NCBI RefSeq assembly: GCF_003050865.1
Contig: NZ_QAOK01000016.1
Coordinates: 1-64,000, forward strand
DNA length: 64,000 nucleotides
Direction: 5' to 3'
From: Nitrosospira multiformis
GTDB taxonomy: Bacteria > Pseudomonadota > Gammaproteobacteria > Burkholderiales > Nitrosomonadaceae
Shown here: positions 4,514 to 64,000 of the stretch, piece after piece
Position numbering within the stretch: the first letter of the stretch is position 1
Layout: the number at the start of each line of letters is the position of its first letter
Position numbers and translations under genes: made by a program
Notes under the pieces: model-generated
What the model was told of the DNA's origin: nothing
The model's database searches: none
The model's input: the letters and a program-made list of their open reading frames with translations, nothing else

Positions 4514-5089
4514 TCAGCCTTGCTTCTGGGTATGCAGCTTCATCATTGCGGCCTGATAATTGCCTTCCGCGATGAGCGGCCAGACTTCGAGACTGTGGTT
4601 TATAGCCGTGTCGATCAGCGTCGCTTCTTCCTTGCGCGGGGGCTGCAATACGTAATTCACGACGGCATGCTTTTCTCCCGGATGGCCGATGCCGATCCGC
4701 AGGCGCCAGAACTCCCTGGTACCGAGATGCGCGGCAATGTCTTTCAAGCCATTGTGACCGCCCAGTCCGCCGTCGAGCTTCAGCCTGGAAACGCCCGGTG
4801 GCAAATCCAGTTCGTCGTGCACTACGAGCATCTGTTCAGGCTGAATCCGGTAGAAACGGCACAATGCAGCCACTGCCCTTCCGCTCGCATTCATGTAGGT
4901 CTGGGGATTGAGCAGCCAGGACTCAGAATCACCCCGGCCGATACGCGCGCACAAGCCGTGAAACTTCGCATCGGCCTTCAGCGTGACGCCCAATTGATCC
5001 GCCAGGCGGGCTACCCACCAGGCACCGGCATTATGGCGTGTTGCCGCATATTCCCTACCCGGATTGCCAAGGCCGACGATGAGCTTCAC
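4514..5089 (-). CDS. pth: Peptidyl-tRNA hydrolase
   Basis: A 191-residue enzyme that cleaves the ester bond of peptidyl-tRNAs released from stalled ribosomes, recycling tRNA in the cytoplasm. The GLGNPG motif at the N-terminus, Asn9 and His19 (in RHNAG) and the central DELDLPPG and [11 protein letters not shown] blocks are all present. The start is GTG, fixed by the conserved [10 protein letters not shown] sequence that must lie at the N-terminus. Directly downstream of rplY, the usual partner. Confidence 0.97.
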
Positions 5090-5111
5090 TGGATAAGACC
5101 CGAATCATTAA

Positions 5112-5152
5112 AACGAAAAGCCCGCGAAGCCAGAATGACCCCGACGGGCTGA
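5112..5152 (-). terminator. Possible hairpin between rplY and pth
   Basis: On the minus strand AGCCCG and CGGGCT can pair across a loop of about 22 bases and are followed by TTTTCGTTTT. The stem is only six base pairs, so it is at most a weak terminator or attenuator; pth is probably still partly co-transcribed with rplY. Confidence 0.35.
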
Positions 5153-5247
5153 AAAACTGATGTGATACCGGTAAATGCTGCACTGAGCGGATGCCGTGAT
5201 TCCACTCGCACCTTCCTGCGGAAGGCACTGCTCCGCCCTCCGCGGTC

Positions 5248-5934
5248 TTACTTTTTCTTTCCGGCGTCTTTTTTCTCGCCTTCCTTGGCGACGCCTTCTT
5301 TCTTCTGTACGGAGGTGGGTACGTCTCCCGCTGCTATGCCTCCGGCCGCTTCCTCAGCCGCTACCGCACGCGGAATGGCGATGGTCGCCACAGGGAGGTC
5401 TTCACCTTTTATCAGCGACGGAATTTCAACTCCTTCCGGCAACTGCAGGTTGCTCAGGTGTATGGTATTTCCGGCTGCAAGTTCACCCACATCTACAGAA
5501 ATGAATTCAGGCAGATCCTTGGGCAGGCAGGAAACATCCAGTTCGGTAAGCACGCGGCTCACCAGTCCGCCGGCCAGTTTCACCCCTGGGGCAATATCTT
5601 CGTTGATGAAGTGCAAGGGCACTTTCATATGGATTTTCTTGTTCGAAGCGACACGCTGAAAGTCGATATGCAGCACCTGGAGCTTGAAGGGGTGCATCTG
5701 TATATCCCGCAGCAGCACCTTTTCTTTCTGTCCCTCCACGCTCATCGTCAGGATGGAAGCATGAAAGGCTTCCAGTTTGAGCTGGTGATAAAGATCGTTG
5801 TGATCGAGTTCGATCGGTTGCGCCGGGTTTTCTCCACCATAGATGATTCCCGGTACCTTGCCGGAACCCCGCAGGCGGCGGCTCGCACCTTTGCCCTGCA
5901 ATTCGCGCTTTTCGGCGCTGACTTCAATTTGCAT
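5248..5934 (-). CDS. rplY: 50S ribosomal protein L25, long (CTC) form
   Basis: A 228-residue protein. The first ~90 residues are the L25 domain that binds 5S rRNA (start [14 protein letters not shown], with [17 protein letters not shown]). The following ~100 residues form the TL5/CTC extension, and the last 40 are an Ala/Glu/Lys-rich tail ending in KKDAGKKK. The short E. coli form has only the first domain. Placed between prs and pth as in most proteobacteria; 160 bases separate it from prs. Confidence 0.96.
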
Positions 5935-6094
5935 CTACTTTCTCCAGAATGTGGATCATCCGCGACCAGATGAATCCGATTAATAAACCTGTATATTGGG
6001 CTATCCTGCTCAAATCTCGGGCTATTCGCTGTCAGCTTGCTTCCCGTTTTGCTTCTTCATGCCGATATGTAATGTGTAATGCCTGGAACTCGTG

Positions 6095-7045
6095 TTACTC
6101 CATGAAAAGCGAACTCACGGAATCTTCGTTACTGATCCTGAGCATCGTTTCCGCGAGCAGGCTTGCCACGCTCAGCTGCTCTATGCGGACACATGCCCTG
6201 GCATCCTCCCGCAGCGGAATGGTATCGGTGACAACGAGCTTGTCTAGGGCGGAATTCTCGATCCGCTCCACGGCACTGCCCGACAGCACCGGATGCGTGC
6301 AATAAGCCAGCACGCGTTCCGCTCCCTGCTCCTTGAGCGCGTGCGCTGCTTCGCACAGGGTATTGGCGGTATCCACCATGTCGTCCATGATCACACAGGT
6401 GCGCCCGTCCACCTCGCCGATGATGTTCATGACCTTTGCTACATTCGCTTTGGGACGCCGCTTGTCTATGATGGCAAGGTCGCATTCGAGCCGTTTGGCC
6501 ATCTGGCGCGCACGCACTACTCCACCGACATCAGGGGAAACCACCACCAGATTCTTGAAATCATTTTTCCAGAGATCGCCCAGCAAGATAGGCATGCTGT
6601 AGATGTTATCCACGGGTATGTCAAAAAACCCTTGGATCTGGTCCGAATGCAGATCCATCGTCAACAGCCGGTCTATGCCGACACTGGTCAGCATGTTTGC
6701 CACTACCTTGGCCGTAATGGGTACCCGCACCGAGCGCGGGCGCCTGTCCTGGCGGGCATACCCGAAATAAGGCATCGCGGCGGTGATGCGCGACGCGGAG
6801 GCCCGCTTTAGCGCATCCACCAGCACCAGCAATTCCATCAGCGTATCGTTGGTGGGCATGCAGGTGGATTGCAGGACGAATACATCCTTGCCGCGGACAT
6901 TCTCAAGGATTTCCACCATTACTTCGCCATCGCTGAAACGGCCCACCGTGGCACGGCCGATGCGAAGATTGAGATGCCGCACGACATCCTGCGCCAGCTT
7001 GGGATTGGCGTTGCCCGTAAAAACCATCAAGCTATCGTAGGCCAT
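6095..7045 (-). CDS. prs: Ribose-phosphate pyrophosphokinase
   Basis: Makes phosphoribosyl pyrophosphate from ribose 5-phosphate and ATP for nucleotide, histidine and tryptophan synthesis. The 316 residues starting [11 protein letters not shown] match the family length. A frame extends 33 codons further upstream, but that part is unlike the family and I reject it. Visible signatures are RQDRRPRS, the metal/ATP site around [13 protein letters not shown] and the PRPP-binding loop [13 protein letters not shown]. It lies downstream of tRNA-Gln with a 124-base leader. Confidence 0.96.
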
Positions 7046-7169
7046 GAGAAAACCTAAAAGTCCGAAAATGCGGAACCGGTGCAACCGATGGAACCGGCAG
7101 ATGGGAAATTCATGGGAGCGAACAGGGACTGGCGGCAGGCCCACCCGGACGAATCATGGAGCTTAAAAC

Positions 7170-7244
7170 TGGCTGGGGAGGTAGGGATCGAACCTACGAA
7201 TGCCGGAATCAAAATCCGGTGCCTTACCACTTGGCGACTCCCCA
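7170..7244 (-). tRNA. trnQ: tRNA-Gln (anticodon UUG)
   Basis: The minus strand folds as a 75-base tRNA including an encoded CCA end. The acceptor stem TGGGGAG pairs with CTCCCCA, the T-loop reads GGTTCGATCC, and the anticodon loop ATTTTGAT gives UUG for glutamine. The unusual 5' U is typical of bacterial tRNA-Gln. The tRNA begins one base after the ispE stop codon, so it must be cut out of a transcript that also carries ispE and probably prs. Confidence 0.96.
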
Positions 7245-7245
7245 A

Positions 7246-8130
7246 TTATTCTTCTGCAAAATCATACAAGGGGTGGCGATCAAGTCCCTGCGCCACAAAA
7301 CCCTTCATACCGTATGGAACCTTCCCCAGCGCCGCTCTGGCCCTGGATTCGGTCGCAAACTCGGCAAAAACGCACGCGCCTGAACCCGTCATGGCGGCCA
7401 TCCTTGCACCCTCGAGCTGCCGCAACCACTCAAGATGACGTGCTACCTCTGGGTATGAGGCACATACCACCGGCTCGAGATCATTATGCCCCTGCTCGGT
7501 GGAAAAGGGCGGTATTTTGATCGGAATCGTGTTTCGTGTCAATTCCTTACTCGAAAAAACCTGTGCCGTTGATACGTGCACAGGGGGCGTGAGTACCAAG
7601 TACCATGCCGGGGGCAGCGCGATCGGCAGGAGTTTTTCACCGATGCCTTCGGCAAAGGCATTTCCACCGAAAACGAATACGGGAACGTCCGCCCCCAGCG
7701 CCGGAGCCAGTTTCAAAAGCTGGTTCCGGCGCCAGCCCAGCTTCCACAAGCGGTTGAGCGCCAGCAAGGTCGTAGCTGCATCCGAACTGCCGCCCCCCAG
7801 GCCGCCTCCCATCGGGATGCGTTTTTCCAGAAAAATGTCCACCCCCCAGAGAGTACCGCTTTCCCGTTGCAGCAGCTTTGCCGCGCGCACGCACAAATCC
7901 TGCTCTTCCGTCACCCCCGGAGTGGGCGTATGCAACCTGATCACACCGTCCGCGCGTAACCCGAAATGGAGCTGGTCGGCGAAATCCACCAGGCGGAAAA
8001 CGGTTTGCAGAAGATGGTACCCATCCTCCCTGCGTCCCACCACGTGCAGGAACAGATTGAGCTTGGCAGGCGCAGGACAGCTCAGTTCCGCCTGCGAATC
8101 CGCTTCAGTCTTCGACAGTATTCCATTCAT
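7246..8130 (-). CDS. ispE: 4-diphosphocytidyl-2-C-methyl-D-erythritol kinase
   Basis: GHMP-family kinase of the methylerythritol phosphate route to isoprenoids; phosphorylates CDP-methylerythritol. The 294 residues show the substrate-binding start PAPAKLNLFLHV, the ATP-binding glycine-rich loop PMGGGLGGGSSDAAT near residues 105-120 and the C-terminal MTGSGACVFAEF motif. Its start overlaps the end of lolB by 26 bases and its stop is one base from tRNA-Gln, so lolB, ispE and the tRNA form one transcription unit. Confidence 0.96.
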   Translation of the reverse strand: MNGILSKTEADSQAELSCPAPAKLNLFLHVVGRREDGYHLLQTVFRLVDFADQLHFGLRADGVIRLHTPTPGVTEEQDLCVRAAKLLQRESGTLWGVDIFLEKRIPMGGGLGGGSSDAATTLLALNRLWKLGWRRNQLLKLAPALGADVPVFVFGGNAFAEGIGEKLLPIALPPAWYLVLTPPVHVSTAQVFSSKELTRNTIPIKIPPFSTEQGHNDLEPVVCASYPEVARHLEWLRQLEGARMAAMTGSGACVFAEFATESRARAALGKVPYGMKGFVAQGLDRHPLYDFAEE

Positions 8131-8821
8131 CTATTACCAGCCGTATCCGCAGATCGTCACGGTTAAGTGTCAGCAGTCTGGCACGCGCAGCTTCTGACTG
8201 TGGAGTTTCAGCAGCTACCCCCGGCGAGTAGCCTGCATAAGTGATTTCCCATCCGTTCTGGCGAATGGCTGCCACGCGGCCCGCAATATCAAGGTCGATT
8301 TCGGAGGACGTGTCCGGCGAATTCGTGCCTTGCACCCAGTACTGCAAACCCGAGAGTGGCAAGCGCCAGCCCAATACCCGTTCTGTGAGTTCTTCCACAT
8401 TATCGGCGTAATAATGTTCCTGCTCGGCAGTTATCAAAGACACCCCATCGGCTGTGCGCTCAATCTGCCCCACAGCCTGACCTATGGGGGAGAGAAGGAG
8501 AATCTGATCGCTGTCCTGCAAGTGGCGCCACTGAACTCCACCGGAAAAACCGTCTCTGCCTTCTTTCACCGATACCCTGCCAATCAGCCGGAAGCCCGCG
8601 CTTTTCGCTTCCATCGCGCCGGGTTCCATGATAACAGTGCTGGCTACATTCTTTTCTTCTGGAGCAAGGGTCGCACAAGCGGAAAAAAAAGCAGGCGCCA
8701 GAAAAACAAGATGCCATGAACGCAAGGAACCAAGGGAGAGCAGGGAAAATCTTCCGAAATTTTTCAACTTCGGACAAGCCGGGTTCACAAAGCGAACAGG
8801 CTGCGAATCAACGCAGGGCAT
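8105..8821 (-). CDS. lolB: Outer-membrane lipoprotein LolB
   Basis: LolB accepts lipoproteins from the periplasmic carrier LolA and inserts them into the outer membrane. The protein has a hydrophobic signal segment followed by a lipobox ending FFSAC (Cys49), then the LolB body with F-R-L-I-G-R-V-S-V and GVQWRH near the start. With the ATG used, about 35 residues precede the hydrophobic stretch, longer than normal; a later non-ATG start is possible. Order TPR-lipoprotein/lolB/ispE is the common betaproteobacterial arrangement. Confidence 0.88.
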   Translation of the reverse strand: MPCVDSQPVRFVNPACPKLKNFGRFSLLSLGSLRSWHLVFLAPAFFSACATLAPEEKNVASTVIMEPGAMEAKSAGFRLIGRVSVKEGRDGFSGGVQWRHLQDSDQILLLSPIGQAVGQIERTADGVSLITAEQEHYYADNVEELTERVLGWRLPLSGLQYWVQGTNSPDTSSEIDLDIAGRVAAIRQNGWEITYAGYSPGVAAETPQSEAARARLLTLNRDDLRIRLVIDEWNTVED

Positions 8822-57154: not shown

Positions 57155-58468
57155 TTATGCAGTTGCGACGGCTCTGCGCACCATGTAGCCAACTTCCTTC
57201 CCTTTTACATCCTTGTGGTCCTTGATGAAATCGCTGGCTTCCAGATTGAAACAGGTGTCGGCCTTGAAAGTATAGGCACCGCCTACGGGAAGCAACTTAC
57301 CTTCGACGGCTTCGCCCTGCTCCATTTTCTGTGCTCCGTTACGACCCATCGCTCCAAACAGGTCATCCTTATCGCCAAACGCCATGGTTTTATCGCCGCT
57401 GATGCGAGATGCAAGCGGATATGCCAGACCTACCGCTCTATCATTGGGCGTATGCGTGATAAGGACTGGACCCTTGACTCGATGATTATCCACGACCCCA
57501 CGGTAAAATCCCTGTTCAATCCTTGAAAACCCGTTCTGGGAGAAAGCCGCCTGGAGAAGTGCCATGCTTTTTATCTTGTCGGTTTTCGAGTTCAGTGCCG
57601 CGGAGGTGACAACGCGGCAGCCGAAGCTGTGCCCGATCAGATGGATGCGTTCGACCTGCGAGGCAAGTTTATCGATCAACGGGGCAACCCCGTTCTTGCC
57701 AACGGCTCCCGATCGCGTCTTCATCTCATAGTAGGTGGTATAGTTGAGCAGATTTATGGCAGCTGCCTTGAATCCGGAAAGAATCTCTACCAGCCCCGCC
57801 GCTCCGCCTTCTGCCGGCGCGGGAGCGCTCACACCGAGCGGCAACGCTGCCCCGCCTCCCGCAACATCCTCGCCCAGATCCTCTTCCTCGGCCTTCAGGT
57901 TTTTCATCAATTCGTTGCCGTCATCCTTGAAGAAGATATTGGACGCATCCTCCTTGCCCGCGGCACTCGGATCGAGCAGGGAGCGCATTTTTTTCACAAA
58001 TTCATCCCGGACTGACGCTTTTTCCTCGAGGTCCGGAAGCAATGCTTTCGCCTCATCAAGAAGTTTCTTGTGCTCCGGATCGGTGAAAATTTCTTTCATG
58101 TCATCCAGTTTCTCTTCCAGCCGCTTGATGGCGTCGCCATTTCCACCCCCAAGGGCGGCGCCACCTCCCCCAGTGGCAGGAGTACCCGAAACGGCAACAG
58201 ATGTATCATATTCCCTGGATGGCCAGAATACCCCCAGAATGACAGGCTTTCGCCCGGACAAATCATTTGGTTGTGCGGTGGCGGCAAAACTTGCAAAAAA
58301 GCTGTTATATAGATCTTCTGCCTTGGACTTGTTGTTGTTCCACCCGTGCGACATGATGATAAGGTCAGTCACAGCGGCAGGCAGAACAATCCCCTTTTCA
58401 GGACCCTGCCCGTTCTTGTCGAAGCTTGCTTCCACGTAAGGAATTCCCGCGATTTCATCCATTGCCAT
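57155..58468 (-). CDS. Alpha/beta hydrolase with low-complexity insertion
   Basis: A 437-residue protein with an alpha/beta hydrolase core. The oxyanion segment is IIMSHGWNNNKSKAED (near 37-52), the nucleophile elbow IGHSFG gives Ser281, an acidic residue is in TPNDRAVG, and a His lies in IKDHKD near the end. A Gly/Ala- and Glu/Lys-rich insertion of about 140 residues (90-230) separates the first strands from the nucleophile. No signal peptide, so cytoplasmic. Good AAGGAGC site before the ATG. It follows the subtilase gene by 31 bases. A lipase or esterase role is family inference; the true substrate is unknown. Confidence 0.8.
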   Translation of the reverse strand: MAMDEIAGIPYVEASFDKNGQGPEKGIVLPAAVTDLIIMSHGWNNNKSKAEDLYNSFFASFAATAQPNDLSGRKPVILGVFWPSREYDTSVAVSGTPATGGGGAALGGGNGDAIKRLEEKLDDMKEIFTDPEHKKLLDEAKALLPDLEEKASVRDEFVKKMRSLLDPSAAGKEDASNIFFKDDGNELMKNLKAEEEDLGEDVAGGGAALPLGVSAPAPAEGGAAGLVEILSGFKAAAINLLNYTTYYEMKTRSGAVGKNGVAPLIDKLASQVERIHLIGHSFGCRVVTSAALNSKTDKIKSMALLQAAFSQNGFSRIEQGFYRGVVDNHRVKGPVLITHTPNDRAVGLAYPLASRISGDKTMAFGDKDDLFGAMGRNGAQKMEQGEAVEGKLLPVGGAYTFKADTCFNLEASDFIKDHKDVKGKEVGYMVRRAVATA

Positions 58469-58499
58469 GCTCCTTTTTTCTCTTTTTATACTTTCAAAA

Positions 58500-60596
58500 T
58501 TACACCGACTGAATAGCGCGCATCAGGTCAATGAGGCCAGTGCCCTGGAAGTAGCGGTCGCGCCGCAGGTCAGTAGCCGTATCAACGAAAATCTCTTTAA
58601 CACGTTCTGCCTTGCCGATGAACTCGGTTCGCACCGAGAGAAACGCGGCGATTGCGCCGCTGACATGGGGAGCCGCCATACTCGTGCCGCTGGTTTCGAC
58701 GTAGTCGCACTCGATGGCCTGCGCGCCCTCACTTTTTAAATGGCCCGTGGCACATGAGATGATTTTTTCGCCGGGCGCGACGAGGTCCGGCTTGAGGCGG
58801 CCGTCGCCCGTCGGCCCTTTCGAGGAAAAGTAGGAAACCCCGTAAACGTGCGGCATGTCGCGATGGGTCGAACCCACTGTAATAGCGAGTTCCGCATTGC
58901 CGGGATCATTGATGGTCAGCGCCATTCCTGCCGAGAGCGCACCTGTGGCGGCCTTCAACGTGCCGTAACCTGTATTGCCCGCGGCGACGACGACCACGAC
59001 GCCGGTTTTTACCAACCGGTCAACCTCGACGCAGAGCGGACTCTGGCCGCAGGCGAACCATTCCGGCTCGAAGGTATATCCCAGGCTCATGTTGACCCCG
59101 TGGATCAGAAGCTTTCGGCCGTAACCGTTGATCTCCTGCACGTGGGCGATGGCCGCGATGAGATTGCTCACGCTCCCTTTTCCGTTTTCGTCCAGTACCC
59201 GCAGGCTTATCAGCTTGCAGCGCGGCGCCATTCCGCTGATGCCGTCCACGAGTTTTATCTGCTGGTATTCGACATCTTCGGAACCCGTTTTCAGATAGCG
59301 GGAAACCGCTACAGGAACTCGGGAGGGTGCGGCGGAATCGCCCGCCGGAGGGGAAGCATCCGCTGGCGCAGTCCCTTCTGTTCCTCCCGGCGCACCGGCC
59401 GGACGCCACTCGCCGGCAATGATGCCTGCCACATGCGTCCCATGTCCGTTCTCATCGTCGAACGGGCCGCTGCCGTCAGCCGTAAAGTCTTTATGCCATG
59501 TGGAATCTTTATCGACGTTGTTGTGCTTGCGAAAGTGCTCATGATCCTGCTTTATTCCTGAATCCATCACCGCCCAGGTGATTCCGGCGCCCCGCGCGGA
59601 AAAAGAATTTTGCGCCGCATCCGCTTTTATCGTGGCGATGGAGTGAGTGATGGAGGCAGAAATCTCGAAATCCGGCCATATACGGAAGATAGCGCGAAAT
59701 TTGGCTGGGTTGATTTTTGCTGCACGAGCCTTCGCTTCATGGCTCGTACCCCGCACTTTTTCCTGAGCCTCGCGAGCCTTCACCTTTGCCTGGGCAACAT
59801 CGAGCTCGATGAGCGCCTTGATGGTACGGGCTTCCAGGCAGGCGAACATGTAGCCGCTTTCGTGCTGTTCCTTCTTGAGATGAACATCCTGGCCCGCGTC
59901 GTACACTTTCGCTTTGTTCTTGGCCTCTTCGATATTCTGGTAAATCCAGCGCCGGGCCTCTTCCCGCCCACCCGGATATTCGAGATTGATATCGATGATG
60001 ACTTCGTAACGTGTAGGGTGGATCCGAAGGATAGGCGATTTCTTTGGAGCTTCCTCAACCTGTGACAGCCGTTCGTTTGCGGCTGATATTCGCCGTATTA
60101 TGGTTGCGTGCAAGCTGGCAAAGCTGTAGGCGCCATCCTCCGAGACCGGCCCGATTTTCTGAGCCGCGATCGCTTCCTCGAGATCCTTGTGGCGCCGTTG
60201 CTCCATCAAAAAAAGATTTCCGTAAATATCAGACCGGCTCCTTGTCGAGCCGCCACGCACCGGCGTGCCCCGTGTCCCCGCTGGGGCCATCTCCTTGCTC
60301 TCTTCGACCCGTTTTTTCGATGCTTCCAATGCCTTCGCTGCCGCCTCTTCGGCCATCTCGACAACCAACTCCCGCATCTCCTCCGGCTTCCCATCGAATT
60401 CTCTGTTGTATTCGATCAGCGTATTGAATTCTCCATTTTCGGGAAACGGATGCGTAGCCCGAAAAGCTTCAATTCCTCTTAACTCCTCCTCCATCTGCCG
60501 CAGAAGAGGAATAGCAATCACGGAGCGGTCAAGCTCCAGCGGGTCAAAAACTTTGACAGTGGGCTGACTTTCCGGGGGCTGGTTGGAAGGGGACAT
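58500..60596 (-). CDS. Subtilisin-like (S8) serine protease with long N-terminal region
   Basis: A 698-residue protein. The first 335 residues are charged and partly coiled-coil (Glu/Ala/Lys rich near 70-105 and 210-295) with no signal peptide, so it is probably cytoplasmic. The catalytic domain follows: Asp345 (VMDSG), His385 (GHGTHVAG), oxyanion Asn541 (AAGNTG) and Ser639 (SGTSMAAPHVSG). All four key residues are present. A large loop after the His (about 400-430, Pro/Ala/Gly rich) is unusual. First gene of an operon with the alpha/beta hydrolase, and divergent from the cyclooxygenase-like gene. Confidence 0.93.
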   Translation of the reverse strand: MSPSNQPPESQPTVKVFDPLELDRSVIAIPLLRQMEEELRGIEAFRATHPFPENGEFNTLIEYNREFDGKPEEMRELVVEMAEEAAAKALEASKKRVEESKEMAPAGTRGTPVRGGSTRSRSDIYGNLFLMEQRRHKDLEEAIAAQKIGPVSEDGAYSFASLHATIIRRISAANERLSQVEEAPKKSPILRIHPTRYEVIIDINLEYPGGREEARRWIYQNIEEAKNKAKVYDAGQDVHLKKEQHESGYMFACLEARTIKALIELDVAQAKVKAREAQEKVRGTSHEAKARAAKINPAKFRAIFRIWPDFEISASITHSIATIKADAAQNSFSARGAGITWAVMDSGIKQDHEHFRKHNNVDKDSTWHKDFTADGSGPFDDENGHGTHVAGIIAGEWRPAGAPGGTEGTAPADASPPAGDSAAPSRVPVAVSRYLKTGSEDVEYQQIKLVDGISGMAPRCKLISLRVLDENGKGSVSNLIAAIAHVQEINGYGRKLLIHGVNMSLGYTFEPEWFACGQSPLCVEVDRLVKTGVVVVVAAGNTGYGTLKAATGALSAGMALTINDPGNAELAITVGSTHRDMPHVYGVSYFSSKGPTGDGRLKPDLVAPGEKIISCATGHLKSEGAQAIECDYVETSGTSMAAPHVSGAIAAFLSVRTEFIGKAERVKEIFVDTATDLRRDRYFQGTGLIDLMRAIQSV

Positions 60597-60961: not shown

Positions 60962-62557
60962 ATGTATGAATTTTTTTTCCCGATCCTGTTTCGGATTGCG
61001 AACAGATTTCCCTGGCTCGTCAGAATTGTTTCGCGGATACCATGGTTACGGCGGTTTATCAGTGACGCTTTTGTCAACTGGCAAGCCTATTCCACAAACC
61101 CTCGGCCCCGGCCGTTCTCGCTGGCTTCATCTTATACGACCTGGCAATCGTTGACGGATAAGTCATTTACCGGACGGCATCTGCCGGAGGCGGAAGGGGA
61201 TCAGAATCTACCGGATATGGAAAGAGTCGTTGATTTATGGCGAAGAAAAGAGAACAAAGAAATATCCTCAGTCGATACAAGCATACTGTTTGCTTTCTTT
61301 GCCCAGTGGTTTACCGATAGTTTCCTCAGGACAGATTTTCGCGATCGCCGGAAAAATACATCGAACCATGAAATCGATCTTTGCCAGCTCTATGGTTTGC
61401 GGGAAGAAATTACGCATTATTTACGGCTGAAAAAAGATGGGAAGCTGAAGTACCAGATTATCGATGGAGAAATTTTTCCTCCCTACCTTTTTAACGTTGA
61501 AGAGACGACTACGGGCCACTGGGTGTTCGCAGATAAAGAATTCGAGAAGCTGCACCCCCGCGAGGTTCTGGATTTTGTTTTTAGCAATATCCCCGAGGAA
61601 CGGTTGAAACGCATGTTTGCCGCGGGGCTGGAGCACGGCAACTCGTCGGTTGGCTATACCATAATGAATACATTAATGTTGCGTGAACACAACCGGATTT
61701 GCGACCTGCTAAAAGAAGCTTACCCAACATGGGATGATGAACGCCTGTTTCAGACGGCAAGAAACATCATGGTTGTGCTGCTGATCAAAGTGGTTCTGGC
61801 CGATTACGTCTCGCGTTTTACACAGTTTGGTTTTACCCTCGACCCCTCCCCTGATCTGGCGGAAAGGCAGCGCTGGTACCGCACCAACTGGATCTCCCTG
61901 GAATTCAACCTTCTGTACCGGTGGCATTCCATGGTCCCCGAAAATTACAGGGTCGGTAACAAGTCATACCCGCTGGATGCGTTTCGTAACAATACCCCGC
62001 TGGCAATTCAACATGGCATCGGAAAACTGATAACGGCCGCATCGACGCAACGAGCGGGCCGTATTGGTCTTCACAATACACATAGTTACTTTTTCTATCC
62101 GCTGCCCGTTGGTGACGATAATCGAAGCGTCATGGAGCGCTCCATCGCAATGGGACGTCAGGCCAGGCTCCGTCCCTTCAATGACTATCGGGAAGCATTC
62201 AGCATGCCCCGTTTGCGGAGTTTCGAGGAATTGACGGAGGACAGTGAACTACAGCGGGAACTGAAGGACCTTTATAAAGACCGGATCGACGATCTGGAGT
62301 GGCAGGTTGGCATATTTGCCGAAGATCATGATGAAGGCTTCAGTCTTGGGCGTCTCATGGTACGGATGGTGGGATACGATGCGTTTACCCATGCGCTGAC
62401 AAACCCGCTTGTATCGATCTATGTACACAATGAAAAGACCTTTTCAAGGATTGGACAATCCGTTATTGAAGAAACAAGTTCACTCGCGGATATCGTCAAA
62501 CGTAATGTAAGGAATAGCGATACGGTCGTTGCAAGCTTCAATACATCTGTGCAGTGA
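60962..62557 (+). CDS. Cyclooxygenase-like animal-type haem peroxidase (fatty-acid dioxygenase)
   Basis: A 531-residue protein strikingly like prostaglandin H synthases. Matching blocks are FAFFAQ at 111-115, KDGKLKYQIIDGEIFPP at about 158-174, REHNRICDLLKEAYPTW at 241-257, and EFNLLYRWH at 314-322, which supplies Tyr319 (equivalent of the oxygenase radical Tyr385) and His322 (proximal haem ligand, His388). The distal His207 position is Asp119 (FAQWFTD), and the aspirin-site Ser530 aligns with Ala474. The N-terminus (1-40) is an amphipathic Trp/Arg/Ile stretch like the monotopic membrane anchor; there is no EGF domain or signal peptide. A lipoxygenase gene follows. Activity is inferred. Confidence 0.9.
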   Translation: MYEFFFPILFRIANRFPWLVRIVSRIPWLRRFISDAFVNWQAYSTNPRPRPFSLASSYTTWQSLTDKSFTGRHLPEAEGDQNLPDMERVVDLWRRKENKEISSVDTSILFAFFAQWFTDSFLRTDFRDRRKNTSNHEIDLCQLYGLREEITHYLRLKKDGKLKYQIIDGEIFPPYLFNVEETTTGHWVFADKEFEKLHPREVLDFVFSNIPEERLKRMFAAGLEHGNSSVGYTIMNTLMLREHNRICDLLKEAYPTWDDERLFQTARNIMVVLLIKVVLADYVSRFTQFGFTLDPSPDLAERQRWYRTNWISLEFNLLYRWHSMVPENYRVGNKSYPLDAFRNNTPLAIQHGIGKLITAASTQRAGRIGLHNTHSYFFYPLPVGDDNRSVMERSIAMGRQARLRPFNDYREAFSMPRLRSFEELTEDSELQRELKDLYKDRIDDLEWQVGIFAEDHDEGFSLGRLMVRMVGYDAFTHALTNPLVSIYVHNEKTFSRIGQSVIEETSSLADIVKRNVRNSDTVVASFNTSVQ

Positions 62558-62630
62558 TCAGTGAAAGATAGGGCACATAGAAAAGCTATGGAAACCAGGC
62601 AAGAACCTTATTTTTATAAAGGAGTGCCTC

Positions 62631-64000
62631 GTGTCGAACAAGCTACCGCAGAACGAAGAAAATACAGGTAAAGAAGATCGGAAGAATTATCTTCTTCAGA
62701 GGCAGGCTGAATATCAATACGCCTATGAGTATGTCGATACTATTGCAGTCGTGCGTAAACTGCCATGGCGGGAGATACCCGGTATTGGATACTGGCTCCG
62801 CGGGGGGATAAACCTTTTACGGTTGATTCCAAGTTTACCCCGCCTATCGGTTACCTTTTTGCGCTACCTGCTCGGCAAGCCGATGGAAAGTTATCGGGAT
62901 TATGTTTTTTTTCCGGCGAGTCCTCCAAACCCCGATCTCGTCGATAGCTTCCAGCAAGACCTGGTATTTGGCCTGCAACGCGTCATTGGAGTAAATCCTG
63001 TAATGTTGCGCGCTGTAACCCATCAGAATCCTCTGCCGGAAAAGCTGCCGGAACCTGAGATACGGCAAATTTTTGAAGAGCAGGTTGATGAGATCGACTA
63101 TGCGGCTGCCACCGAGCAAAAGCGCCTATACGTCCTGGACTACGCAGTCCTGGATGTATTGCAGTCAAACCCGGGGTATATCGATGGCGGACAAAAGCAA
63201 TATGTCACGACCCCGATCGTCGTGTTGTTCCTGCAATCGGATGGCATGCTGCGGCCGATTGCCATCCAGCTGTACCAGGATGCCAGGCCCGATAATCCAA
63301 TCTATACGTCAAAAGACGGCAATCTCTGGCTGACAGCGAAAATGTTCGCCCAGGTCGCAGATGGCAACCATCACATCCTGTATACCCATGCGACCCGTAT
63401 TCATTACGTGATGGAAGCCATTATCATGGCTTCACGAAGACAGCTTTATAAATCTCACCCGCTTTATGTTCTATTAAATCCGCATCTTCAATATACGCTC
63501 AATGTCAATCACCAGCACACTTTCCTGAAAGACCGGAAAGGACGGCCGGGCCGGTACGGTGAGCTATTTGCCGGAGACTATGACTCGATGACTCAGTGCA
63601 TGGCCAATGGCATGACGAGCTTTAATTTTAAAGAATCCGCCTTCCCTGATGATATTGCGAAGCGGGAAGTCGATAATCCTGATCTTTTTTATCCCTATCG
63701 CGATGATGGCATTTTGCTGTGGAATACGATTCAAGGCTTTTGCAAGGAATATGTCGATTTATATTACAAATCTGAAGCAGATGTTACTGACGACTATGAA
63801 ATTCAGGCATGGGCACATGATATCAGTGCGCGGGATCGCGGCAGAATTCCCGAGTTTCCCGCCAGATTTGGATCCAGGCAAGAGCTGAGCGAGACTCTCG
63901 GTCATATCATTTTCCTATGTACTGCTTTTCATTCCTGCATTCACTTCAACCAATACAAATATCCGGGATTCGTTCCCAATATGCCGCATTCGGCTTATGC
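62631..64000 (+). CDS. Lipoxygenase (C-terminus beyond window)
   Basis: 456 codons of a non-haem iron lipoxygenase, starting at GTG with AAGGAG six bases upstream. No PLAT domain; the N-terminus holds hydrophobic/amphipathic segments (IPGIGYWLRGGINLL). Iron ligands are visible: His253 and His258 (THATRIH, with the family block SHPLYVLLNPH just after), His434 and His438 (FHSCIHFNQY). The fourth is His as in animal 12/15-lipoxygenases, not Asn as in plant enzymes. The last ligand, the C-terminal Ile carboxylate, is out of view. It lies 73 bases after the cyclooxygenase-like gene with no terminator, so they form an operon. Confidence 0.92.
   Translation, partial: MSNKLPQNEENTGKEDRKNYLLQRQAEYQYAYEYVDTIAVVRKLPWREIPGIGYWLRGGINLLRLIPSLPRLSVTFLRYLLGKPMESYRDYVFFPASPPNPDLVDSFQQDLVFGLQRVIGVNPVMLRAVTHQNPLPEKLPEPEIRQIFEEQVDEIDYAAATEQKRLYVLDYAVLDVLQSNPGYIDGGQKQYVTTPIVVLFLQSDGMLRPIAIQLYQDARPDNPIYTSKDGNLWLTAKMFAQVADGNHHILYTHATRIHYVMEAIIMASRRQLYKSHPLYVLLNPHLQYTLNVNHQHTFLKDRKGRPGRYGELFAGDYDSMTQCMANGMTSFNFKESAFPDDIAKREVDNPDLFYPYRDDGILLWNTIQGFCKEYVDLYYKSEADVTDDYEIQAWAHDISARDRGRIPEFPARFGSRQELSETLGHIIFLCTAFHSCIHFNQYKYPGFVPNMPHSAY

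Follow-up and report, generated by a model that had tools for sequence, protein, structure and literature searches.

At the end of the window, by which we mean the whole 64,000-nucleotide stretch of Nitrosospira multiformis DNA analysed here (contig NZ_QAOK01000016.1, positions 1 to 64,000), a gene for a cyclooxygenase-like (COX-like) haem dioxygenase is followed on the same strand by a gene for a lipoxygenase (LOX). The two genes are adjacent, co-directional and co-inherited with genes for a catalase-related haem protein and a DyP-type peroxidase. The reading that we favour, and consider somewhat more probable than not, is that they would encode a membrane-surface fatty-acyl dioxygenase pair that feeds a hydroperoxide-processing module. 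These are known families in a new combination, and a literature search whose coverage mostly did not extend to subscription papers found no paper on a COX-like/LOX pair. The pair is laid out as follows.

60962-62557, + strand: COX-like haem dioxygenase of the peroxidase/cyclooxygenase superfamily, 531 amino acids; PF03098 (An_peroxidase), E=2.3e-42; COX-2 is the best match in the PDB
62558-62630, + strand: intergenic spacer of 73 nucleotides, with a ribosome-binding site AAAGGAG at 62618-62624 and no terminator-like site
62631-64295, + strand (window part 62631-64000): LOX, 554 amino acids; PF00305 (Lipoxygenase), E=9.1e-55; best PDB match 5MED

A preliminary description of this DNA had placed a COX-like gene and a LOX gene, members of two unrelated dioxygenase families, on one strand of an autotroph's genome, 73 bases apart and with no terminator between them. 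The open reading frames and the matches to PF03098 and PF00305 agree with this, and the host, whose nearest named relatives are Nitrosospira multiformis, is indeed an ammonia-oxidising autotroph, as Nitrosospira and Nitrosomonas are in general. None of the six terminator-like sites found by a scan falls in the spacer; the counts of such sites (6 against 4.2 in shuffles) and of promoter-like sites (7 against 5.1) are near the shuffle level. The LOX gene, which starts at a GTG codon with AAAGGAG ahead of it, crosses the window end, and its remainder was read from the window's own contig (C16, 70630 bases), where it stops at 64295.

The pair was followed through 199 genomes, namely the genome of the window and 198 relatives, 120 of the set being family members. 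At a threshold of E<=1e-10 the COX-like protein is matched in 24 of these, with at least 73% identity in 17 (hereafter the carriers) and 50% in one (G057), with three genomes holding only a paralogue (G013, G112, G113) and three giving weak matches; LOX matches occur in 18, comprising the 17 carriers and a genome with a distant LOX (G150, 34%). The preliminary description had proposed conserved adjacency as a check, and the check held: in 17 of 17 carriers, belonging to the two genera Nitrosospira and Nitrosomonas, the LOX gene lies 3' of the COX-like gene on the same strand, across a spacer of 54-184 bp and with a purine-rich site before its start. The recurrence of order, strand and short spacer in every carrier argues that the adjacency is not due to chance, and, since the pair is kept although its immediate surroundings are not the same in the two genera, the two genes are the conserved unit. 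Carriers make up 8 of the 23 Nitrosospira and 9 of the 80 Nitrosomonas genomes, one of them a Nitrosomonas europaea strain; a lipoxygenase is also noted for Nitrosomonas europaea in an excerpt of a published source (PMC11941309).

The histories of the two genes are similar, in that their tree distances correlate at 0.93 and 9 of 14 splits are common to both trees. The nine Nitrosomonas carriers are 73-83% identical to the window genome in the COX-like protein, 74-84% in the LOX, 89-94% in the catalase-related protein and 68-75% in the DyP-type peroxidase, set beside 68-77% in a yardstick gene that was taken as lysA by eye. In three of them (G063, G076, G094) the COX-like gene is 82-83% identical and lysA 68%, which is a hint that the COX-like gene may have been transferred between lineages.

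COX-like paralogues, 39-43% identical, are present in 11 genomes. The window genome has one of its own (C7:14562-16064, L050; 39% identical), which has no LOX neighbour and falls on the side of the tree opposite the paired clade. These paralogues were considered as part of the system and set aside, as the 20-kb stretches around 8 of the 11 held no LOX or catalase-related match. No LOX was found in the 18.6 kb stretch (L049) around the 50% homologue of G057, where the COX-like gene is adjoined by a gene for a divergent His-rich protein (L049 17728-18408) that looks by eye like a fatty-acid hydroxylase or desaturase.

Outside the family the pairing with a LOX was not seen. A scan of GTDB genomes with a COX-like alignment (A1) gave 399 relatives; the analysis was made on the best 80, with flanks of up to 8 kb per side, shorter on short contigs. 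Fourteen of these 80 loci have a LOX in their flanks, all of them from carriers (14 of the 17); the remaining 66 have none. A whole-genome LOX search in 50 of the 65 non-family genomes gave a match at E<=1e-6 in 11, including three weak ones (E 6e-11 to 2e-7), and none in 39. Eighteen of the 66 loci without a LOX include a homologue of the catalase-related gene; in 16, all cyanobacterial, it immediately follows the COX-like gene in the same orientation. The preliminary description had the COX-like protein and the LOX acting in sequence on the same fatty acid, which would give a doubly oxygenated oxylipin. The constant adjacency of the two genes and their similar trees fit tight coupling of this kind, but nothing indicates that the product of one dioxygenase is the substrate of the other, and COX-like genes outside the family stand without an adjoining LOX and mostly in genomes without any LOX match. 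We regard sequential action as unlikely.

The COX-like protein matches COX-2 best (E=1.7e-68, residues 12-519). By alignment, the catalytic Tyr385 and the proximal haem ligand His388 are kept, LLYRWH being aligned to TLYHWH (Y319 and H322 here). COX Arg120, Tyr355, Ser530 and distal His207 align with Gln41, Phe289, Ala474 and Asp119; the first three are residues of the cyclooxygenase channel. Q115, D119, Y319, H322, D473 and A474 are invariant in the 59 rows of an alignment of COX-like proteins (A3). As the residues used in prostaglandin synthesis are replaced, an assignment as a cyclooxygenase in the strict sense is not supported; judged by these residues, the product should be a hydroperoxide rather than prostaglandin H2. 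Gupta and Selinsky are said to have reviewed bacterial orthologues of prostaglandin synthase, and an excerpt of one source describes bacterial cyclooxygenases as putative sequences only (PMC4420034). The protein carries FTDSF at 117-121 and GYDAF at 471-475, and another source gives a distal FTDSF and a terminal GxDAF motif for the Nostoc 10S-dioxygenase, B2J5P4 (PMC13049297). On the strength of these shared motifs and of the residues above, we describe the protein as 10S-dioxygenase-like rather than as a cyclooxygenase. It could be asked whether it is a dioxygenase at all or a plain haem peroxidase, since it belongs to the peroxidase/cyclooxygenase superfamily. However, the distal histidine of the peroxidase site is an aspartate, the Tyr385/His388 pair and the COX membrane-binding region are kept, and the PDB matches to COX-1 and COX-2 reach E 1e-68 to 3e-64 against 4.7e-23 for the best peroxidase, so that we think a plain peroxidase very unlikely.

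The best PDB match of the LOX is 5MED, Cyanothece LOX2 (E=4.2e-59, with the alignment starting at residue 4). Candidate metal ligands are H253, H258, H434, H438 and the C-terminal Ile554. The pattern His-x4-His, His-x3-(Asn/His) and C-terminal Ile or Val, which we take to be the rule for lipoxygenase iron ligands and to assign these roles to the listed residues, is found here as HATRIH and HSCIH, and the C-terminal residue in the 17 carriers is Ile in 7 and Val in 10. Regio- and stereochemistry could not be read from the usual telltale residue, as the alignment has a 3-residue insertion exactly there.

Both proteins were earlier said to have amphipathic N-termini in place of signal peptides. 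Over 18 residues the helical moment peaks at 0.65 in residues 1-60 of the COX-like protein, a value reached by 0 of 42 other segments and by 6.8% of shuffles, and at 0.67 in residues 31-95 of the LOX, reached by 0 of 40 other segments and by 3.5% of shuffles. The stretches thus stand out within their own proteins, with a strength that is moderate given that such shares of shuffles reach them. The most hydrophobic 19-mers of the two N-terminal regions are only mildly hydrophobic (0.38), no signal-peptide program having been run. The N-terminus of the COX-like protein aligns from residue 12 to the COX-2 chain from residue 64 onward, which we take to be the membrane-binding region. We infer from these stretches that both enzymes would act at the membrane face. 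The catalase-related protein also has an amphipathic stretch (moment 0.65, reached by 0 of 32 other segments and 9.6% of shuffles), located in an N-terminal region that is missing from a cyanobacterial homologue (L112).

The module to which this protein belongs lies beyond the window, on the same contig.

64514-65719, - strand: catalase-related haem protein, convergent to the LOX gene; 14-member profile
65716-67236, - strand: DyP-type peroxidase, with a 4-base overlap with the catalase-related gene
67242-68546, - strand: protein of 434 amino acids with a very hydrophobic stretch and no Pfam match, adjoining the DyP gene

As a single query the catalase-related protein matched no Pfam family and no PDB sequence. 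A profile of its 14 members matches 3e4w, catalases and 1u5u (E=1e-11 to 1e-9), the last of which is the allene oxide synthase domain of a coral, and at E<=0.1 the Catalase model (PF00199) matches 10 of the 14 members, the window genome's own protein not being among them. H103, R372 and Y376 are invariant in all 14, and H103 and the R-x3-Y motif presumably fit the distal and proximal haem ligands of catalases. With both the distal His and R-x3-Y found, a catalase-type family is the predicted assignment. No structured RNA was found at Rfam thresholds in the own-contig stretch that covers the module (L002, in which 4514-8546 corresponds to C16 64514-68546). Beside the catalase-related unit in Nitrosospira is a gene for a protein of 170 amino acids without a Pfam match (L002 8775-9287, - strand), of which 43-46% identical copies lie near some Nitrosomonas pairs; near the contig end (L002 9984-10538) is the start of an oxidase that binds flavin adenine dinucleotide (PF01565, first domain part only, 184 amino acids).

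The catalase-related gene is matched in 49 of the 199 genomes, 18 of them with at least 89% identity, and the DyP gene in 20, 18 of them with at least 68%. The two sets of 18 are the same and consist of all 17 carriers of the pair and one further genome (G075), so that within the 120 family members the co-occurrence of pair and module has a hypergeometric P of 9e-20, kinship being ignored. The module adjoins the pair in Nitrosospira; in the carrier Nitrosomonas it either shares a contig with the pair, at a distance of about 10-16 kb (6 genomes), or is on another contig (3 genomes: G053, G076, G094).

In the pathway that we propose, the Tyr319/His322 haem machinery of the COX-like protein would begin by hydrogen abstraction from an unsaturated acyl chain and yield a single hydroperoxide, as the cyanobacterial linoleate 10S-dioxygenase does, and the non-haem iron of the LOX would produce a hydroperoxide at a 1,4-diene; both steps draw on family knowledge and on the conserved residues. 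Enzymes of the COX type and lipoxygenases need traces of hydroperoxide for activation, so each dioxygenase may prime the other. The co-inheritance of the catalase-related protein and the DyP-type peroxidase points to hydroperoxide processing as the downstream step. The former may cleave or rearrange the hydroperoxides and the latter may reduce or use them, and the outcome would be short oxylipins or the clearing of lipid peroxides. The 10S-dioxygenase and catalase-like genes of Nostoc punctiforme are, we believe, neighbours. According to an excerpt of one source, the Nostoc catalase-like haem protein cleaves the 10S-hydroperoxide to 1-octen-3-ol (PMC9579011).

Several observations weigh against a dioxygenase pair that feeds such a module. 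Activity, product and substrate of the pair are predictions only. The module is a mere 10-16 kb or so from the pair in 6 of the 9 Nitrosomonas, and the S8 protease that flanks the pair in Nitrosospira also tracks it, being present in 8 of 8 carriers and in G017 and absent from 14 of 15 non-carriers; some of the profile is therefore due to linkage. That the module can exist by itself is seen in G075, where the catalase-related and DyP genes occur but the pair does not, and in an order-level relative (G133), where these two genes and that for the 434-amino-acid protein lie together and neither the COX-like protein nor the LOX is matched. The trees of the pair agree less well with that of the catalase-related gene (0.77 and 0.73, with 7 and 5 of 14 splits in common), and a certain agreement would be expected from common species history by itself. 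The COX-like protein is outside the main cyanobacterial clade in our tree, and the regiochemistry of the 10S-dioxygenase is therefore not transferable to it. Lipoxygenases require a polyunsaturated fatty acid, and ammonia oxidisers are, to our knowledge, not known for such acids. Desaturase-family genes number 3 in the window genome and 3-5 in all 23 Nitrosospira, with or without the pair. We rejected a desaturase as the missing link, as PF00487 is present in 188 of the 199 genomes and does not separate carriers from non-carriers.

The tree was made by a quick method with a midpoint root, and the Nostoc 10S-dioxygenase itself is absent from it. The paired COX-like proteins are one clade of 17 (SH-aLRT 100), grouped with proteobacterial and actinobacterial proteins (93), and a branch with an SH-aLRT of 99 divides a side of 42 rows with the paired clade from a side of 48 rows with all the cyanobacterial rows but one (L119). 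The COX-like protein carries VLADYVSRFTQF where the cyanobacterial clade has an IM..YI..ITPY motif. A common partner gene of the COX-like gene in the sister clades was sought by eye in the open reading frame lists of 10 loci and L049, and none was seen.

The linkage just described would also be expected if pair and module travelled jointly as a hitch-hiking island and worked apart, an account that fits the tracking of the S8 protease in Nitrosospira and the presence of the module on one contig with the pair in six Nitrosomonas. Against it, the pair persists between two genera whose immediate flanks differ, and pair and module are on separate contigs in three genomes, where contig breaks hide the real distance. 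We think an island of this kind quite unlikely. At the other end of the Nitrosospira pair, on the - strand and divergent from it, are genes for a subtilase-family protease and an alpha/beta-hydrolase-like protein (window 57155-60596), which occupy the same place in the 8 carrier Nitrosospira.

The substrate question bears on a further possibility, that the enzymes are a shield or a weapon whose targets for oxidation are either polyunsaturated fatty acids of other organisms (algae, plants or protists) or damaged lipids of the cell itself, with the catalase-related protein and the DyP-type peroxidase clearing the peroxides. Autotrophs without known polyunsaturates would need an outside source, the patchy presence of the pair among Nitrosospira and Nitrosomonas fits a niche trait, and the two co-inherited haem proteins are of a peroxide-handling kind. 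However, neither dioxygenase has a strongly hydrophobic N-terminal stretch that would suggest export (again judged without a signal-peptide program), and producing lipid hydroperoxides would be an odd way to detoxify. We give this possibility tentative weight and think it rather unlikely.

The dioxygenase pair feeding a hydroperoxide-processing module can be carried further, to an oxylipin system of ammonia oxidisers in which a haem dioxygenase and a LOX, both at the membrane, supply each other with activating hydroperoxide and have as substrate a chain or lipid new to these bacteria, and a catalase-related lyase and the DyP-type peroxidase make the final signal or volatile. This extension is doubtful. 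If true, bacteria would have an equivalent of the arachidonate cascade in which a single operon encodes both of the enzyme types that open it in animals. In animals, prostaglandin and leukotriene synthesis are begun by two unrelated enzymes that are encoded apart; here both families are in one bacterial unit that is conserved in two nitrifier genera. An active pathway would mean either that polyunsaturated lipids are made or encountered by these autotrophs, or that the enzymes act on a different kind of substrate. The pair also offers a natural case for studying the coupling of a haem dioxygenase to a lipoxygenase through hydroperoxide.

Among known systems, Brash et al. in 2014 reportedly described the linoleate 10S-dioxygenase of Nostoc punctiforme with a catalase-related 10S-hydroperoxide lyase. 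Both there and in the present system a COX-like haem dioxygenase with FTDSF and GxDAF shares its genome with a catalase-related haem protein, which in Nitrosospira is encoded at the locus of the dioxygenase. The present system differs in that the immediate partner is a LOX and the COX-like protein belongs to another clade; its catalase-related gene, convergent to the pair or at a distance from it, encodes an extra amphipathic N-terminus and overlaps the gene for a DyP-type peroxidase. With mammalian COX-1 and COX-2 the COX-like protein shares the fold family, the membrane-binding region and, by alignment, Tyr385 and His388, but Arg120, Tyr355, Ser530 and His207 are replaced and there is no room for the epidermal growth factor region before residue 12. 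Cyanothece LOX2 (CspLOX2, 5MED) is the closest solved LOX and aligns in the N-terminal stretch too, and both have a catalytic domain without a C2-like domain (PMC5437038 for CspLOX2); by alignment the fourth ligand position is His here and Asn in CspLOX2, there is a 3-residue insertion near residue 296, and the LOX here adjoins a COX-like gene. Homologues of the catalase-related protein are encoded next to COX-like genes of cyanobacteria, and coral allene oxide synthase is distantly related to it. The company of a LOX and a catalase-related haem enzyme recalls the coral fusion proteins (1u5u, 3dy5) and the Acaryochloris fusion, in which a LOX is joined to a catalase-related enzyme (PMC11719350), whereas in the nitrifiers the two are encoded by separate genes and a COX-like dioxygenase is added to them.

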